From positions 1 to 43,508 of the forward strand of contig JACQWB010000185.1 in NCBI GenBank assembly GCA_016209385.1: a DNA stretch of 43,508 bases. Reading direction: 5' to 3'. Of this stretch, positions 19,462 through 32,287 are shown in pieces (the stretch's first letter is position 1; every line of letters starts with the position of its first letter). The stretch comes from Candidatus Rokuibacteriota bacterium (GTDB taxonomy: Bacteria > Methylomirabilota > Methylomirabilia > Rokubacteriales > CSP1-6). A program made the position numbers and the translations under genes. The notes under the pieces were generated by a model. The model was not told where the DNA came from and ran no database searches. It saw nothing but the letters and a program-made list of their open reading frames with translations.

Positions 19462-20835
19462 TCAGGGCCTCGCCACAGGGTAGCCGGCCTTGAGCCAGGC
19501 CGTCATCCCGCCGCTCACGTTGTACCAGCCCTGGAGCCCGTGCCGCTTGAGCGTGCTGATGACCGTACTCGACCGGAGCCCGCCGGCGCAGAGGACCGCC
19601 TTCGGGCGTTCCGGCGGAAGCTCGCCCCGCCGCTCCACCGCCTCCCGCATGGGCAGGTGGAGCGCCCCCTGGATGTGCCCGTCCAGCCACTCGAAGGGCT
19701 CGCGGACGTCGATCACCACGACGTCGGGGCGCTCCTCGAGCCAGCTCGCGAGGTCGTACACCGTGATCTGGGGCACCGTCTCCGTCGGTAGTCCCTCGCT
19801 CCGCCACTCGATCATTCCCCACTGGAGGAAGCCGATCACCTCGTCGATTCCGACGCGCGCGAGCCCTTGGACGGCCCGCTCGAGATCGGACGGCCCCTGG
19901 GCCATGAGGAGGACCGGTACGCCGCTCGGGACGAACCAGCCCACGCGGTCGCCGAACTGCGGGCTTTCGATCCTCACGTTGAGGGCGCCGAGCACGTGCC
20001 CTTCGCCGTAGGTGGCCGGGTCGCGCACGTCCACGACACAGGCGCCCCGGGCGATCGCCTCCCACGCTTCCCGGGCGGTGTAGGGCCGCGGCTTGGCGGC
20101 CTCCAACGGGATCAGTCCTCGATTCTTCCCCACGATCTTCTCGAAGGAGGGCGGTTTCGGCGGGAGGCCGGCCATGAGCCGCTCGACGAACTCGGCCTTG
20201 CTCTTGACCTGGAGCGCGGGGTTGAAGCGCCGCTCGAACCCGATGGTGGACCCCGACTTGGCCGACATGACGCGTCCGCACAGCGAGCCGGAGCCGTGCG
20301 CCGGGTAGACCTCCACGCTGTCGCTGAGGGGGAGCAGGACCCGGCAGAGGCTCTCGTAGATCTCCTCAGCGGCCCGCGCGCCGCCGAGATCGGGGCGGCC
20401 CACGTCACCGACGAAGAGCGTGTCACCGGTGAGCACGAACCAGGGATCGTTCCCGCGCGAGCGGTCGGTCACGAGGATGCAGATGCTGTCGGGCGTGTGG
20501 CCCGGCGAGTGCAGCACCTTGAGGAGCACGTTCCCGATGCGGATCTCGTCGCCATCGCGCACGGCGAGGTGGTCGAAGACGGCCTTGGCGGCCTGATGGA
20601 GGACGATCGGGGCTTCGGTCACGGCGGCCAGGTCACGGTTCCCCGAGATGTGATCGGCGTGGGTATGGGTCTCGACGATGTGCGTGATCCGGAGTCCCCT
20701 CTTTCGAGCCAGCCGGAGGTAGTCGTCGGCCCGGTCCCGTCCGGGGTCCACGACAACCGCCTCGCCGGCCTCACCACAGGCGACCAAGTAGGAGAGACAC
20801 CCGGCTTCCTCATTGAGGAACTGCTGGAAGATCAT
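19462..20835 (-). CDS. Persulfide dioxygenase-like MBL protein fused to two rhodanese domains
   Basis: A 457-residue fusion. Residues 1 to about 210 are an ETHE1-type metallo-beta-lactamase: HIVETHTHADHISG for the metal site, VLHSPGHTPDSIC and VLTGDTLFVGDVGRPDLGG. The central rhodanese (about 255-345) lacks its active Cys (loop reads V-L-L-M-A-Q-G-P-S-D). The C-terminal rhodanese (about 355-457) has it in VLCAGGLRSS. The enzyme should oxidise glutathione-type persulfide to sulfite while the active rhodanese moves sulfane sulfur. A ggaggg site 6 bases before the ATG fixes the start. It is the first gene of the long minus-strand run and is divergent from the cNMP module. Confidence 0.9.
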   Translation of the reverse strand: MIFQQFLNEEAGCLSYLVACGEAGEAVVVDPGRDRADDYLRLARKRGLRITHIVETHTHADHISGNRDLAAVTEAPIVLHQAAKAVFDHLAVRDGDEIRIGNVLLKVLHSPGHTPDSICILVTDRSRGNDPWFVLTGDTLFVGDVGRPDLGGARAAEEIYESLCRVLLPLSDSVEVYPAHGSGSLCGRVMSAKSGSTIGFERRFNPALQVKSKAEFVERLMAGLPPKPPSFEKIVGKNRGLIPLEAAKPRPYTAREAWEAIARGACVVDVRDPATYGEGHVLGALNVRIESPQFGDRVGWFVPSGVPVLLMAQGPSDLERAVQGLARVGIDEVIGFLQWGMIEWRSEGLPTETVPQITVYDLASWLEERPDVVVIDVREPFEWLDGHIQGALHLPMREAVERRGELPPERPKAVLCAGGLRSSTVISTLKRHGLQGWYNVSGGMTAWLKAGYPVARP

Positions 20836-21151: not shown

Positions 21152-22972
21152 ATGGTGATACGGTTTTGGGGCACGCGGGGATCTGTTCCCGCGCCGGGCC
21201 GCCGGACGGCGTTCTTCGGGGGCAACACGAACTGTGTTGAGCTGCGCGCCGAAGACGGCCAGGTCTTTATCTTCGACTGCGGCACCGGGGCCCGACCGCT
21301 GGGCCTCGACATTCTCAGCCGCGGGAGCACGCTCCCGCCGATTCACATCTTGGTGACGCACACCCACTGGGACCATATTCAGGGCTTCCCCTTCTTCGTG
21401 CCCGCCTACGTCCCGGGCGGCCGCCTCAGGGTCTACGGCGCACGGGGTCTGGACCGAACCCTGGAAGGTTCCCTCTCCGGCCAGATGCAGCACACGTACT
21501 TTCCCGTCCAGCTCGAGAATCTCCGCGCGGACATCGACTTCGTCGAGCTGAGCGAAGAGCGGTTCAACGTGGGACCCTACCGGGTCATCACGCAATTCCT
21601 GAACCACACCGCCCCGACGATGGGCTACCGCGTTGAGGCCGGTGACATGAAAGTAGTCTACTGCACCGATCACGAACCGTTCTGGTGGACGCCCTCGCGT
21701 CCTGGCTCGCCCAACCGCTTCGAGCATCCGGGTGAGCGGCGCCATCTCGAGTTTGTCGCCGGCGCGGAGCTCCTGATTCACGACGCTCAGTACAGCGACG
21801 AGGAGTATCCGGCCAAACGCGGCTGGGGTCACAGCACGATCGAGTACGTGACCGACCTGGCCATTCGCGCCGGTGTGAAACGGCTCGCGCTCTTCCACCA
21901 CGACCCGCTGCACACCGACGCGTGGGTGCGGCAGCAGACGGAGCGCGCGCGGCGGCGTGCCCGGATCCAGGGGTCCAACGTGGAAGTCTTCGCTGCGGCG
22001 GAGGGGTTGGAAATCGCCCTCCCCGAGCCAATCTCCCGGGACGGCCGGGATCGAAGCCGGCAGGCCACCCGGCTAACTCCGACCGGTCATATCCTCGTGG
22101 CTGGCTCCGACCCGACCGCGGTCAAGGAAGTCCGAGCAGCGCTCGAGCCGGATGGCTACCGGCTGACCGCCACTCACACTGCGGACCCGACGACGCCCGC
22201 GGCGAAGCTCCGGCCCGACCTGATCGCGCTCGTCGGCCCGGGCAGCGAAGCCATGCTGCTCGACCTGGCCGAGCGGATCCGCGCGCAGAAGTGGGGCGCG
22301 CAGCTGCCTATCCTCCTCCTGACAGCCGCCGAGGGCCCCGGGGCCGCCGGGCGCCTGGTCGACGGCACCACCGATGTCCTCTCGCGCCCCTTCAACCCGG
22401 CCATGCTCCGGGCGCGCGTGCGCGCCTGGCTGAGCCATGCAGGAAGGCTCGTCCAAAGCAAGCCTGCCCCGAGCCCGCCGCGACCGTCGCGCGGGGCCAT
22501 CCTCTCCGGAACCAGCCTGCTGAAGGGGCTGCCCTTCAACGAGCGAGCTGCACTCCTCTCCGGCGCGCTGACGTGTCGCTTCCGCAAGGGCGAGGTCCTG
22601 TTCCGGCAGGGGGATCGCGCGGGGGGCGTCTACTTACTCCGGAGCGGCCGGGTGCAGGTCAGCATCCAGCTCCCGGACGGCGGGACCCTGGAGGTGGCGG
22701 TGGCCAAGGCCGGTGACACGGTCGGCGAGCTGGCGGCGCTGGACGGCGGACCGCGGACGGCGACGGCGAGGGCTCTGGAGGCGACCGTCGCCGACTACGT
22801 CCCGCCGGAGATGTTTCAGTCCGGGCTTTCCGGCGCGCCCGGAGCGGGAATGCGCCTCCTCCGCCTCATGGCCGGGCGCCTCCGGGAGACGGACCATCTG
22901 GTCGGCGAGCTGGCCGGGGCGACTCACCGCGAGGAGACGCTCCGCCGCGGCAGTCGGCGCCAGACACGATGA
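21152..22972 (+). CDS. Metallo-beta-lactamase / pseudo-receiver / cyclic-nucleotide-binding fusion protein
   Basis: A 606-residue three-part protein. (1) Residues 1 to about 295 form a phosphodiesterase-like MBL fold: RFWGTRGSVPAPG, THTHWDHIQGFPFF, and conserved His/Asp in VVYCTDHEP and LLIHDAQYSDEEY. (2) About 310-430 is a receiver-like domain that keeps L-R-P-D-L-I-A-L-V-G where a phospho-acceptor Asp is expected and R-P-F for the usual K-P-F, so it probably cannot be phosphorylated. (3) About 455-580 is a CRP-type cNMP-binding domain with GEVLFRQGDRAGGVYLL and the cassette VGELAALDGGPRTATA. It overlaps the next gene, a class II phosphodiesterase, by 4 bases. This looks like a ligand-controlled hydrolase. 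Confidence 0.85.
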   Translation: MVIRFWGTRGSVPAPGRRTAFFGGNTNCVELRAEDGQVFIFDCGTGARPLGLDILSRGSTLPPIHILVTHTHWDHIQGFPFFVPAYVPGGRLRVYGARGLDRTLEGSLSGQMQHTYFPVQLENLRADIDFVELSEERFNVGPYRVITQFLNHTAPTMGYRVEAGDMKVVYCTDHEPFWWTPSRPGSPNRFEHPGERRHLEFVAGAELLIHDAQYSDEEYPAKRGWGHSTIEYVTDLAIRAGVKRLALFHHDPLHTDAWVRQQTERARRRARIQGSNVEVFAAAEGLEIALPEPISRDGRDRSRQATRLTPTGHILVAGSDPTAVKEVRAALEPDGYRLTATHTADPTTPAAKLRPDLIALVGPGSEAMLLDLAERIRAQKWGAQLPILLLTAAEGPGAAGRLVDGTTDVLSRPFNPAMLRARVRAWLSHAGRLVQSKPAPSPPRPSRGAILSGTSLLKGLPFNERAALLSGALTCRFRKGEVLFRQGDRAGGVYLLRSGRVQVSIQLPDGGTLEVAVAKAGDTVGELAALDGGPRTATARALEATVADYVPPEMFQSGLSGAPGAGMRLLRLMAGRLRETDHLVGELAGATHREETLRRGSRRQTR

Positions 22973-23733
22973 AAATCCGCGTCCTCGGGTCATTCGGCGG
23001 CGAGGGGCAGGGACAGCGCCCCTCGTCGTTCCTGGTCAACGACCACGTCCTGGTCGACGCCGGGGCCGTCGCCGGCGCGCTCTCGGCCCCGGAGCAGGGG
23101 AAGATCGACTACGCGCTGCTCTCCCACGCCCACCTGGATCACATCGTGGGGCTGGCCTTCCTGACCGACACCCTGGCCATCACCGAAGCCAAGACGCCGG
23201 TGATCGCCACCGGGATTGCGCCGGTGATCGACGCGCTCCGGACTCACGGCTTCAACAACTCCCTCTGGCCCGACTTCTCCGCGATCCCCTCGGCCGAGGC
23301 CCCGGTCCTCCGGTTCAGGACGCTTCCCGAGGACACCGAGTCGCGGGTGGGCGAGCTCTGGGTCAGGCCCGTGCCCGTGGACCACACGGTTCCGACGACC
23401 GGCTTCATCATCCACGACGGAGACACCGGTTTCGTGTACTCGGGGGACACCGGGCCCACCGAGAGGATTTGGGCCGCCGCCCGGGGGCTCCGCGGGCTCC
23501 GGGCCGTGGTCGTCGAGACCGCCTTCCCCAACCGCCTCGACGCGATGGCCACCGCGTCCAAGCACCTCACGCCCGCCAAGCTCCTCCGCGAGATGGACAA
23601 GATACCGCCGGACCTGCCCCTCTGGATCTACCACATCAAACCCCAGTTCCTGGAGGAAACCGTCGAGGAGCTGATGAAAGTCGGCTCCTCGAGGATCCAC
23701 ATCCTCGAGCAGGGAAAGACCTACACCCTTTAG
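22969..23733 (+). CDS. Class II cyclic-nucleotide phosphodiesterase-like MBL hydrolase
   Basis: A 254-residue metallo-beta-lactamase-fold protein. The metal motif SHAHLDHIVGLAF fits the class II 3',5'-cyclic-nucleotide phosphodiesterase signature H-x-H-L-D-H-x-x-G. The fold continues with VPVDHTVPTTGFII, GFVYSGDTGPTERIW, VVVETAFPN and YHIKPQFLEE. It would hydrolyse cAMP or cGMP in the cytoplasm; no signal peptide is seen. Its ATG overlaps the stop of the cNMP-binding fusion, so the two are translated together and may work as sensor and degrader of one nucleotide. A hairpin repeat begins 5 bases after its stop. Confidence 0.87.
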   Translation: MKIRVLGSFGGEGQGQRPSSFLVNDHVLVDAGAVAGALSAPEQGKIDYALLSHAHLDHIVGLAFLTDTLAITEAKTPVIATGIAPVIDALRTHGFNNSLWPDFSAIPSAEAPVLRFRTLPEDTESRVGELWVRPVPVDHTVPTTGFIIHDGDTGFVYSGDTGPTERIWAAARGLRGLRAVVVETAFPNRLDAMATASKHLTPAKLLREMDKIPPDLPLWIYHIKPQFLEETVEELMKVGSSRIHILEQGKTYTL

Positions 23734-28339: not shown

Positions 28340-29356
28340 TTAGCCCTTCGGCAGGGTGACCAATACTTCTTCCCCCAGCATGTCGATGACCTTGACAGCA
28401 AGCGTCCCTTCGCCACGGCCTGCCGGGATCTCGTAGCGCCCTGCCACCAGGTCGGTCTTCCGTTCCGGCACGTCTGAGAGACCGATCCGGAACACCTTGC
28501 TATCATAATCGGGGTCGATCAACACGCAGTCCACCATGGCCCGCCAGTCGTCGATTTTAGGTTTCATGAGCCCCGCCTGCTCCTGGAGGCGCTCGATGAT
28601 GCTAGGCGAGATAAAGTCCTCTATCTCGACGATCAGCGTATCGTTCTTCGGTACCGCTTTCACCCTGGCCCGGGCTGGCTGGTGCTGGAAGAACTTGCCG
28701 TACTTAGGGTCTGTCCGCAGCTCGATGACCTCGATCCGGTTCACCGCCGCCTTCCCTCTGCGCAGCCGGTTCCAGTCTTCGATCCACGCGTCCGCGGCCG
28801 GCTCCTTGCCCAGGCAGACAAGCACAATCGCCCGGTCCTCCCCCGGCCGAGCCTCCAGCTCGCGCTTGAGTTCCTCAAGATCAAGCAGCGTGAGCGGATG
28901 GTTGAAGGGAATGACTTTCACTAGCTTCTTGCCGAGCGTTCCGTCGAAGTAGCGGTCGGTCCTGGTCCGCGTCACCCCGATGTGCTCGCAGGCGAGGCTC
29001 ACCGCCTCCTCGTGCTGAATCGCCAGATCGTAATCGTTGACGCGGTACACCGCAAAAGAGAGCTGGGCTGGCCCGGGCGCCTGTTCTTCCTCCGCGGTCA
29101 CACCGGCCAGGGAGACCTGCTGCGCCGTTTGCGCTTGCTCGATCTGCTCCTGAATAATCGTCTGGAGGGGCTTGCTTGTGGTCTGGATCGCTCCTTTGTT
29201 CATGTCGCAGCCAATCCACCGTCTCCCCAGTTTCTGCGCTACTGCCGCCGTCGTGCCAGAACCAATGAAGCAATCAAGGACCAGATCGCCAGGGTTAGAA
29301 CAGCACGAGATTATCCGCCTCAAGAGGTCTTCGGGCTTTTGAGTGGGATAACATGA
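28340..29356 (-). pseudogene. Type III R-M methyltransferase (Mod), C-terminal fragment
   Basis: The frame is open from a TAA at 29357-29359 and begins C-Y-P-T-Q-K-P-E-D-L-L-R-R, the conserved block before motif I of beta-class DNA methyltransferases. Then comes motif I, LVLDCFIGSGTTAAVAQ, and W-I-G-C-D-M-N, followed by the long C-terminal region of Mod proteins. The catalytic D-P-P-Y motif, which should lie upstream in this class, is absent. Another piece of the same protein lies upstream in a different frame (29295-29492). Only a TTG at 29323 could start it, so it would not be an active enzyme. Confidence 0.8.
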
Positions 29357-29492
29357 TTACGTCATGGTTTGCTGGGTACCGATGAGCTCTAGCCTTACTG
29401 CTTCCTGCAAAGGGTGAGCGCTTCCAGCAGATGGAGTTCTGGAAATTATCTTGTCCGAACAATTCGTCCATTAGGCACTGAATGTGGTGTGC
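29295..29492 (-). pseudogene. Mod methyltransferase, internal fragment in another frame
   Basis: The frame reads A-H-H-I-Q-C then LMDELFGQDNFQNSICWKR and A-N-H-D-V-I-M-L-S-H-S. This matches the part of type III Mod proteins between the D-P-P-Y motif and the target-recognition region (typical wording L-x-D-E-x-F-G-x-x-N-F-x-N-E-I-x-W-K-R). It runs into the Y-P-T-Q-K-P block of the downstream fragment in a different frame, so a central portion has been deleted. Its N-terminal side abuts a truncated HEPN sequence near 29490. Confidence 0.7.
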
Positions 29493-29650
29493 CCTCCGAG
29501 TATCAACGTGAATTTCTCAGCGGCTTGCTGCGCGTGGAAGCTTACGAGCCGATACGATGGCATGGACCCATTGAGTATCAGATCGGCTGCCAAGAGATCC
29601 TCCTCTGCTGTCGCGAGCCACAGCTTAACCCAGTCCCACTGGATTTGCTC
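29471..29650 (-). pseudogene. Truncated HEPN-domain protein
   Basis: A 59-codon frame reading W-V-K-L-W-L-A-T-A-E-E-D-L-L-A-A-D then Y-R-L-V-S-F-H-A-Q-Q-A-A-E-K-F. This is the first helix pair of the small HEPN domains that pair with MNT nucleotidyltransferases. It starts overlapping the stop of the MNT part, with no ATG, GTG or TTG, and breaks off after A-A-E-K into the Mod fragment, losing the second half that normally carries the R-x4-6-H RNase motif. It is therefore a remnant. Confidence 0.7.
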
Positions 29651-30494
29651 AGGGGTTCTCGTAGAGCAGCACCCCTTCTTTCCAGGCCGGATAGGCGAGG
29701 CCGCCGATGACCGTCTTGGTCTCCTCGAACTCCTCCTCGCCCATCACCCAGGGTTCCGCAACGACGCCAGCGCCCTCAAATACCCGATAGAGGGCGAGCA
29801 GGTTTGCCCGCTTCTCCTCTGGCGTCATGTGGCGGAAGACCACGAGCAGGTCGAAGTCGCTGTCCGGTCGCGCATCGCCCCGGGCTCGCGACCCGAACAG
29901 GATGATCCGCCGGACGCGGCTGCCGTCCGCCTGGAGGATCAGGTCTTTTAAATCAGTCTTGCCCGGGTCGGTCAGGCCACCGATGAAACAGATATCCTCC
30001 ACCTCGGCCGGATGGAGATTGAGTTCCCTGAGCATCTGCCGGAAGAAGTCCATCTCTGGCGTGGAATCGAAGTTGTACGGATCATAGTGGAAGCCGAAGC
30101 TAGCAGGATTTTCTGTGAGCACCGTGCCGGCGCGGAGCAGGAGGCGCTCGCGGTCTTTCGGGTAGGTGATCTCGGCGGTATAGACCTCCACGCCCTCGCC
30201 CTCGGTCTTTCTGCTGAATCCTTCAGGCTTCACGAGCGCCAGCGCCCACTCGACCTTCTCCTCCCTAACCTCATAGCCCCGGGTCTGTTCGGTGATTTGT
30301 GCTGCCAGCTCCTCAAGGTGAGCCACGGGGACATCTTCGTCATCGCCGTAAAGCCGTCTCAATTCATCGTAGAGGGGCCACAGATCAAGGCGGAAGGCGG
30401 CGGCGAGGCTGACGGCGGCTTCGTAGCGGTCCATCGTGTCGGGCACAGCTTCTATTTGGATTGTCCCGCCGACCTGTTGGAGCAGCCTCCTCAC
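29649..30494 (-). CDS. Type III Res C-terminal segment fused to an MNT nucleotidyltransferase
   Basis: A 281-residue frame in two parts. Residues 1 to about 181 continue the type III helicase-nuclease Res: VRRLLQQVGGTIQIEA, LTENPASFGFHYDPYNFDS, MDFFRQMLRELNLHP and EDICFIGGLTDPGKTD. At that point Res proteins should enter their PD-(D/E)xK nuclease; instead the sequence becomes a minimal nucleotidyltransferase (about 182-281) with IILFGSRARGDARPDSDFDLLVV, including the G-S and D-x-D motifs. It is in a different frame from the upstream helicase part, which it overlaps at 30491-30494. It may be expressed as a chimera from the GTG, or be debris of the locus. Confidence 0.7.
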   Translation of the reverse strand: MRRLLQQVGGTIQIEAVPDTMDRYEAAVSLAAAFRLDLWPLYDELRRLYGDDEDVPVAHLEELAAQITEQTRGYEVREEKVEWALALVKPEGFSRKTEGEGVEVYTAEITYPKDRERLLLRAGTVLTENPASFGFHYDPYNFDSTPEMDFFRQMLRELNLHPAEVEDICFIGGLTDPGKTDLKDLILQADGSRVRRIILFGSRARGDARPDSDFDLLVVFRHMTPEEKRANLLALYRVFEGAGVVAEPWVMGEEEFEETKTVIGGLAYPAWKEGVLLYENP

Positions 30495-32287
30495 GCCCTG
30501 CTGCGGGACGATGTCAAGACCGCCTTTGTGAGAACCGTCCTCTCCGAGTCGATCTTGGGCCGTTCGAGCCGGAGCGTGCGGCTGCCCACCCCGGCGGGAA
30601 CGACGGTTCGGACGAGGCGCGTCAGGGTGACTGGGGGCAAGTCGCGCTTTCGCAGAATCAAGCGGGCGGACCCGGTTTCCCGCGTGGCACGGTCAAGGTC
30701 GGCGATGGTCTCGCCATATGTCTCCTGAAGCTGGCGGTCCAGGATCGAGCGGTTATCACGTGAGAGATAGATCCGCGCCTTCCTGTCGTTGCCAGGCACC
30801 TGGCGCAGGCACCGGGTCGCCGCCTGGAGAACGAAGTTGTTGCTGGTCCTGAGCCGGCGCGCCAGAGCGCAGGCAAAAAGGCTCAGGCAGTTCCAGCCTT
30901 CGGTGCCCTTGTTGACGAGCAGGATCACGCGGTGGGGCGCCTCCGGGTCGTTGAGCCGGTTGAAGGCGTCCACCTCCTCCTTTGGAGACTCCGAGGTGTT
31001 CCGCAAACACGCGGCAGGGGACTGACCGACCTTCACCAGCGCAGCATCAATGACCGGGCGCAGCTCCTCGAGATCGTCAGTCTGTGGAAAGTAGATCGCC
31101 AGTCTCGCTGGCGCGCCGTTCAGGAGCTGCAACTTCCCGTAGTCTTTGAAGAAGTCCTCGATGACATGGCTCACGTAGGCTCCTGTGCTCTCCTCGAAAT
31201 CAAACGCCTGGATGTTGCCAGAGACATCTTTAAGTATGTTGTCTCGGATCCCTTCGGAGAGCCCGTACCAGATCACGACGTCCTTTAGGGGCTGACGCCG
31301 AAAATACGGGGTCCCGGTGGTGTTGACGACGCACACGACCTTCGTATTCGCCGCCAGGTAGTCCACCGTCCTTCGAACTTTCTTCAACTCCGCTTGCAGT
31401 GACTGGCCGTAGGTATGATGGGCTTCGTCCGAAAAGACAGCGAGTTGGGGCAACGACGCGATCGCCCGGAGCCGTAGGTTCGCCACTTCGGCCCGCGCTT
31501 CGTCCTCCCGCCCTCGAGTCAGGAGGTCGCCCAGATCGCTCCGCCGAATCGTTTCCTTCTGGATTCGGATCTTCTCAGTATTCGTCACGACGACGTTGTA
31601 AAGGCTCCCCCTGACCACGGGAATGTCCTTCTCCCCGTCTCGGGTGAACGTGAGCTTGATCGAGGCCGAAAACCACCTATAGAGCCGCGGCGGCAGGATT
31701 CTCTCGTAGGGGACAGCGGCTAACTCTTTAAGCGACTCGATAATTGTCTTCCCGGGCGCGAAGACAAGGGCATTCTGGACGAACGGGCCATCCGGATACT
31801 CCAGCGCCATCGCGAACTCGGTGGCAAAGATGGCGCCGATGAGGATGGTCTTCCCCGCCCCCATTGCCAGCGCCAGAATGTAGCTCGGATAGTCCAGCGT
31901 CAGTGTCTCTCGGACGCTCTCCAGGCGAAACTCTCGCAGGAAGCGGTCGTCGGTCTTGATCCGCTGCCACAGGGAATCGAGCGGCTGACCGGCCACGAGC
32001 TTCATGATCTGGGGAGCAATGAGGCCGAGGGCCTCGAGGAGCTCCGCCGGGTTGGGGAAAAGCTTCTGATACAGCGCGAAGATATGCGGAGTATCTTCGA
32101 CCAGTCGTAAGTACCAGTACGTTTCGAGCGCCCGGAGTTGCGGCTTTCTGAGAAATCTTAGGGCGCCCGTTTCCGGGTCACTAGCCCATTCGAAGATCTC
32201 TGCAATTGCAGAGTAGTCGGGCGAGGGGTAACCATCCGCGCGCCACTGGTCCACTTTCCGGCTGAGGACCTGATGCAGGTGGCTCAT
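30491..32287 (-). pseudogene. Type III restriction enzyme Res helicase part, frameshifted
   Basis: A 598-codon frame covering the superfamily 2 helicase of a type III-like restriction enzyme. Walker A YILALAMGAGKTILIGA, DEAH in VFSDEAHHTYG, motif III NTTGTPYF and motif VI ATRCLRQVPG are intact. Near 30520 the frame is lost: the expected continuation G-G-L-D-I-V-P-Q-Q-G-V-R-R-L-L lies in the next frame, consistent with loss of one base around cacaaaggcgg. The rest of Res is at 29649-30494. The ATG at 32287 starts MSHLHQVLSRKVDQW. The region is AT-richer than its surroundings, suggesting transfer. A sequencing error could also explain the single shift. Confidence 0.8.

Follow-up and report, generated by a model that had tools for sequence, protein, structure and literature searches.

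In Dictyostelium, the class IIb phosphodiesterases (PDEs) GbpA and GbpB (PdeD and PdeE) have an MBL catalytic domain followed by cyclic-nucleotide-binding (CNB) domains, which activate the hydrolase when they bind nucleotide (PMC11988041). In bacteria, a CRP-type cAMP-binding domain is known to gate the phosphodiesterase Bd1971 of Bdellovibrio, a CNB-EAL protein (PMC6717892). The atypical class-II PDEs, defined by a PF12706 MBL domain with the motif [T/S]HxHxDH (PMC9293780), include Rv1339, CpdA of Corynebacterium, YhfI of Bacillus and phage Apyc1. They are stand-alone enzymes, and YhfI prefers cAMP and cGMP as substrates (PMC9117128). The typical class-II PDEs (PF02112) include yeast PDE1 and CpdP.

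Our results concern two overlapping genes in the window, that is, the whole stretch of 43,508 nucleotides that was analysed, from a soil or groundwater bacterium of the Rokubacteria lineage. Gene 1 (P0001) is an ORF of 606 aa at 21152-22972 and gene 2 (P0002) an ORF of 254 aa at 22969-23733, both on the + strand. Both ORFs are real genes; GC3 is high for the two alike, they are kept across related genomes, and third codon positions take most of the substitutions within the conserved domains. The features of the locus are as follows.

21152..22972, + strand: gene 1, a fusion of MBL, degenerate receiver and cyclic-nucleotide-binding domains without GGDEF (Pfam, AlphaFold)
21152..22027, + strand: MBL domain (PF12706, atypical class-II-PDE-like or RNase Z-like), aa 1-292 (Pfam, fold matches)
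21359..21376, + strand: metal motif H70-T-H72-W-D74-H75, part of [T/S]HxHxDH (conserved across relatives)
21605..21607, + strand: metal ligand His152, in LNHTAPT (alignment)
21668..21670, + strand: bridging metal ligand Asp173, in YCTDHEPF (alignment)
21896..21898, + strand: metal ligand His249, in LFHHDP, aligned to the final His in RNase Z (alignment)
22085..22441, + strand: degenerate receiver, aa 312-430 (Pfam, NCBIfam, PleD matches, AlphaFold)
22232..22234, + strand: phospho-acceptor position, here Val361 in PDLIALV (relatives with Asp read PDLAIID, two-domain relatives LILLDW)
22505..22921, + strand: CRP/GlxR-type cyclic-nucleotide-binding domain with C-helix, aa 452-590 (Pfam, fold and sequence matches)
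22721..22777, + strand: phosphate-binding cassette VGELAALDGGPRTATARAL, with Glu526 and Arg535 (alignment)
22969..22972, + strand: ATGA stop/start overlap of 4 bp, also present in the genus-mate G001 (L064)
22969..23733, + strand: gene 2, predicted typical class-II cyclic-nucleotide phosphodiesterase (PF02112, yeast PDE1 profile)
23125..23142, + strand: metal motif HAHLDH of gene 2, aa 53-58 (15 orthologues)

The sequence-only reading had proposed for gene 1 an MBL domain, a receiver-like domain without its phosphorylatable Asp and a CRP-type ligand domain. This anatomy proved right throughout according to Pfam, NCBIfam and the AlphaFold model, in which the protein has three folded domains with a mean pLDDT of 84.5. 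The overlap of the genes and the identification of the second one as a likely cNMP phosphodiesterase were likewise borne out, the latter by PF02112, the metal ligands and cyclase neighbours. In the domain searches that it had suggested, Lactamase_B_2, cNMP_binding and PDEase_II (PF02112) scored above their cut-offs and Response_reg fell below. The absence of a cyclase or DNA-binding domain holds for the gene 1 protein, yet its commonest relatives end in GGDEF.

Compared by description only, gene 1 has the domain order of GbpA and GbpB, an MBL-type domain followed by a CRP-type CNB; the Dictyostelium proteins are eukaryotic and have two CNB domains with no receiver between, whereas gene 1 has one CNB and a degenerate receiver between the two parts. 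Bd1971 differs in its catalytic domain, an EAL acting on c-di-GMP, and in the N-terminal position of its CNB. The functional idea of a CNB-gated phosphodiesterase has precedents, but the architecture appears to be undescribed for bacteria: a search of the open literature, with most subscription papers outside its scope, found no description of MBL-REC-CNB or MBL-REC-CNB-GGDEF proteins.

The MBL domain of gene 1 matches Lactamase_B_2 (PF12706) over aa 40-250 (E=7e-16; 58.8 bits against a Pfam cut-off of 27) and reads THTHWDH, like the atypical class-II PDEs, to which gene 1 adds a receiver and a CNB. The columns of H70, H72, D74, H75, H152, D173 and H249 are invariant or nearly so in 40 diverse relatives, and no other domain is as well conserved as the MBL, at 70-79% identity as compared to 57-73% for the CNB and 59-66% for the receiver. 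Both observations argue against a catalytically silent or structural MBL that would leave the protein a mere cAMP sink or a scaffold for gene 2. We consider such a role highly improbable, even though the decayed receiver illustrates that parts of the gene 1 protein lose activity and gene 2 could provide phosphodiesterase activity alone.

Among solved structures, RNase Z is the nearest relative of the MBL domain (Z 28.3), the cAMP/cGMP phosphodiesterase YhfI comes second (Z 26.5), and yeast PDE1 also matches (Z 22.4). RNase Z is the best match by sequence as well (E 9e-16). That YhfI and PDE1 are somewhat more distant, in sequence and fold, counts against a cyclic-nucleotide substrate. Membership of the RNase Z family itself was ruled out, although RNase Z remains the nearest fold: gene 1 misses the cut-off of the RNase Z equivalog TIGR02651 (83.8 bits against 292.95), four other genes of the same genome outscore it, and the flexible arm (exosite) between motifs III and IV, where RNase Z structures are about 30 residues longer with respect to the family profile, is absent. 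Nor is gene 1 an orthologue of the enzyme described by the NCBI equivalog NF041851, a cyclic nucleotide-degrading PDE, since it scores 23.7 bits against a cut-off of 400. Fold and context suggest that the MBL may hydrolyse cyclic nucleotides.

In the receiver, Response_reg aligns to aa 315-424 at E=0.012, under the Pfam cut-off, NCBIfam PhoB-type models match the same stretch with a best value of 2.6e-7, and PleD structures match it at 4e-8. Besides the change of the Asp to Val361, the acidic pair DD has become GS and the Lys has become Arg. This decay is graded among the relatives: two-domain MBL-REC proteins have a canonical receiver, in four-domain relatives the acidic pair is gone and the Asp mostly kept, and the three-domain clade lacks Asp, acidic pair and Lys altogether.

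In the CNB domain, the cNMP_binding model matches aa 476-556 at E=7e-21, over the Pfam cut-off, and the intact phosphate-binding cassette GELAALDGGPRTATARA with E526 and R535 is retained by all full-length relatives. The best solved relatives are cAMP-bound GlxR and MtbCRP (Z about 21, E 8e-14 to 5e-13), and Thr580 in the C-helix aligns with the Thr of CRP and GlxR. In CRP proteins, the corresponding three residues (Glu, Arg, Thr) make contacts with cAMP. Gene 1 probably encodes a cAMP/cGMP sensor, with nucleotide binding through this domain.

Because of the PF12706 motif, the YhfI-like fold, the lack of an RNase Z arm and score, and the precedent of GbpA and GbpB (with Bd1971 for an EAL enzyme), we favour as the most likely reading, at evenly balanced confidence, that gene 1 is a CNB-gated cNMP phosphodiesterase of the atypical class-II type, paired with gene 2 in a genus-specific operon for cAMP/cGMP breakdown. 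In such an enzyme, cAMP would bind the C-terminal CRP-like domain, and the degenerate receiver, retained as a structural or dimer linker, would relay the signal to the N-terminal MBL active site. Binding would most likely switch on the phosphodiesterase, whose substrate would be the same class of nucleotide, giving a feedback as in GbpA and GbpB. Gene 2 would be the typical class-II cNMP phosphodiesterase of the same operon. A second phosphodiesterase in the operon would partly duplicate the first, and the operon is known from two genomes of one genus; both points weigh against this reading.

Relatives of gene 1 were searched in 95 genomes of the phylum. The three-domain form occurs in four of them: the window's genome, its genus-mate G001, where the end of a contig cuts gene 1, G012 (70% identity) and G008 (62%). 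The commonest full-length relatives are proteins of 740-766 aa, about 40% identical to gene 1, that have an additional GGDEF domain at the C-terminal end (Pfam E 1e-28 to 1e-37). This Rokubacterial MBL-REC-CNB-GGDEF family is found in at least 20 genomes, and its GGDEF motif is mostly intact, of the GG(D/E)EF type, with GSDEF or GADEF in some. One copy, L101 from Candidatus Rokuibacteriota, is separated by zero branch length from that of G022, which belongs to the same family as the window, and this places the window in the Rokubacteria lineage. In a tree built from the MBL-REC part that both forms have in common, the three-domain clade and the four-domain clade each have a support of 100/100 and are sisters at a weak 81/63, and G012 carries both forms together. 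Gain and loss of the GGDEF are therefore indistinguishable, and a simple loss from the four-domain family was not established; gene 1 is a GGDEF-less relative within a Rokubacterial MBL-REC-CNB(-GGDEF) family. The four-domain genes are often flanked by opposite-strand genes for a Liv-like branched-chain amino-acid ABC transporter and enoyl-CoA hydratase (L065-L072, L077-L079, L098-L103, L106).

Since a mostly intact GGDEF follows the same MBL and CNB in the four-domain relatives, c-di-GMP or another nucleotide could be the substrate of the MBL. More generally, gene 1 may be a cAMP-responsive effector whose MBL acts on something other than a cNMP (c-di-GMP or pGpG, another phosphodiester, RNA or a PhnP-type metabolite), while gene 2 turns over the signal. 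We regard this as the next most likely reading, possible but somewhat doubtful. RNase Z as the closest sequence is in line with it; gene 1, however, lacks the RNase Z arm of about 30 residues, and YhfI and PDE1 are strong fold matches too.

The genomic surroundings of the wider MBL clade bear on the same choice. Outside the phylum, more than 560 MBL relatives are among the matches listed, in the forms MBL alone, MBL-REC, REC-MBL and MBL-REC-GAF (Methylobacterium, Sphingomonas, Dankookia and others). Receivers are fused C-terminally to the MBL at 30 of 80 clade loci and N-terminally at 11, and are encoded by an adjacent gene at 10. The clade is thus widespread and tied to receiver domains, and several of its operons include histidine kinases and class III cyclases; this tie to signal transduction speaks for a cNMP phosphodiesterase. 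In G086 (L076:2590-12565), a class III cyclase, an MBL-REC with a canonical receiver, a dCache histidine kinase and a second class III cyclase follow one another on one strand with gaps of at most 15 bp, which looks like a complete two-component system for making and breaking cyclic nucleotides. MBL-REC genes adjoin hybrid kinases in at least five further genomes of the family. Outside the family, a REC-GAF-cyclase directly follows the MBL at L166 and a cyclase follows an MBL-REC-GAF at L146, in both cases on the same strand. These directly adjoining class III cyclases speak against a non-cNMP substrate; most receiver-linked MBLs nevertheless have no cyclase neighbour. A cyclase lies within 6 kb of the MBL at 5/80 clade loci, a count that has no proper background, and near 3 of about 23 MBL-REC loci of the family, and for this reason the MBL could have a substrate that is not a cNMP.

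Two arrangements in the clade are noted in their own right. Cultured Alphaproteobacteria (Methylobacterium, Dankookia, Sphingomonas) have MBL-REC-GAF proteins whose receivers are degenerate and whose length is about 600 aa (L127, L130, L133, L146 and others), a practical choice for biochemical work. At L081:522-4272 in G059, one strand carries a stand-alone MBL of the clade, then an ORF for a multihaem-like cytochrome and two individual genes with CNB domains; MBL and CNB thus also exist as neighbours encoded by different genes.

Gene 2 matches PDEase_II (PF02112) at E=5e-14 (52.6 bits against a gathering score of 23.7), with its best stretch covering only positions 85-144 of the 340 in the profile, and it matches the profile of yeast PDE1 at E=4e-11. 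It has the HxHLDH motif and all the metal ligands of the typical class-II PDEs, H139, D160 and H222 being likewise invariant in 15 orthologues, but it is shorter than yeast PDE1 (254 vs 369 aa). Relatives were found in 82 of the 95 phylum genomes, counting any match, some of them weak, and most are clear single-copy orthologues; a scan of viral contigs found none. From its family, its ligands and its cyclase neighbours, gene 2 is probably a cNMP phosphodiesterase.

Gene order around gene 2 was compared at 50 loci of the window's family. A CHASE2 class III cyclase, identified by Pfam, divergently adjoins gene 2 at 23/50, which supports the phosphodiesterase assignment. At 17/50 the closest gene that was recognised encodes a corrinoid protein, at 6/50 a persulfide dioxygenase, and 2/50 are located at the end of a contig. 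Gene 1 fills the slot at the remaining two, in the window and in G001, both genomes of the genus. The order is otherwise shared: methyltransferase, corrinoid protein, persulfide dioxygenase, the slot, gene 2 and an MFS transporter. In the window, 19462-20835 on the - strand encodes a persulfide dioxygenase-like MBL fused to a rhodanese, beside the corrinoid protein and methyltransferases, in the order conserved around gene 2 family-wide. About 20 class III cyclase domains are encoded in the window's genome, likewise a point in favour of a cNMP substrate, and its own CHASE2 cyclase, on a different contig (C239), shares 56% identity with the cyclase that adjoins gene 2 in G089. As the slot that holds a CHASE2 adenylate/guanylate cyclase in sister genera holds gene 1 in the window and in G001, gene 1 either took over the place of a cyclase or was put into it. 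Elsewhere in the window, ORFs at 28343-32287 on the - strand have a third-position GC below their surroundings, and one of them, 28343-29323, is DNA methyltransferase-like (DCFIGSGTT); this stretch is possibly a recently acquired restriction-modification-like island.

The cyclic-nucleotide theme of the sequence-only reading therefore finds support in a PF02112 gene 2 that stands beside a CHASE2 cyclase at 23 of the 50 loci and in a CRP/GlxR-like CNB with intact ligand residues. Its idea of a self-contained two-gene unit did not stand: a survey of neighbourhoods for the same pair found it in the two genomes of the window's genus only, gene 2 being conserved alone in most of the phylum, and a conserved module was rejected in favour of a genus-level rearrangement. 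It may even be that gene 1 was inserted by chance at a permissive position next to a housekeeping phosphodiesterase, with no functional link, which would be compatible with either a cNMP or another substrate for its MBL. The restriction to one genus, the usual state of gene 2, unpaired or beside a cyclase, persulfide dioxygenase or corrinoid protein, and the location of the nearest gene 1 relatives (62-70% identity, in G012 and G008) elsewhere and without gene 2 are all in line with chance. We nevertheless think it unlikely, given that the ATGA overlap is the same in both genomes of the genus despite the divergence of the proteins (63% identity for gene 1, 81% for gene 2), that each gene independently indicates cNMPs, and that the slot taken is that of a cyclase.

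The shut-off of cAMP signals in bacteria is far less known than their synthesis, above all in lineages rich in class III cyclases. We put forward tentatively that cyclic-nucleotide-gated MBL phosphodiesterases exist as a class in bacteria, with gene 1 as a representative, and that the MBL-REC family is a widespread, undescribed output of two-component systems that degrades cyclic nucleotides. A receiver-linked MBL family present in many phyla, together with a CNB-gated version, would supply a regulated cAMP breakdown capable of feedback. If this is true, the sensing and destruction of cAMP and the synthesis of c-di-GMP would be united in one protein in the four-domain MBL-REC-CNB-GGDEF relatives; these are possible cross-talk proteins from cAMP to c-di-GMP, and the link at which their GGDEF hints is testable within one polypeptide. 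Should the substrate of the MBL be a different one, the family would still be a widespread and uncharacterised enzymatic output of two-component systems.
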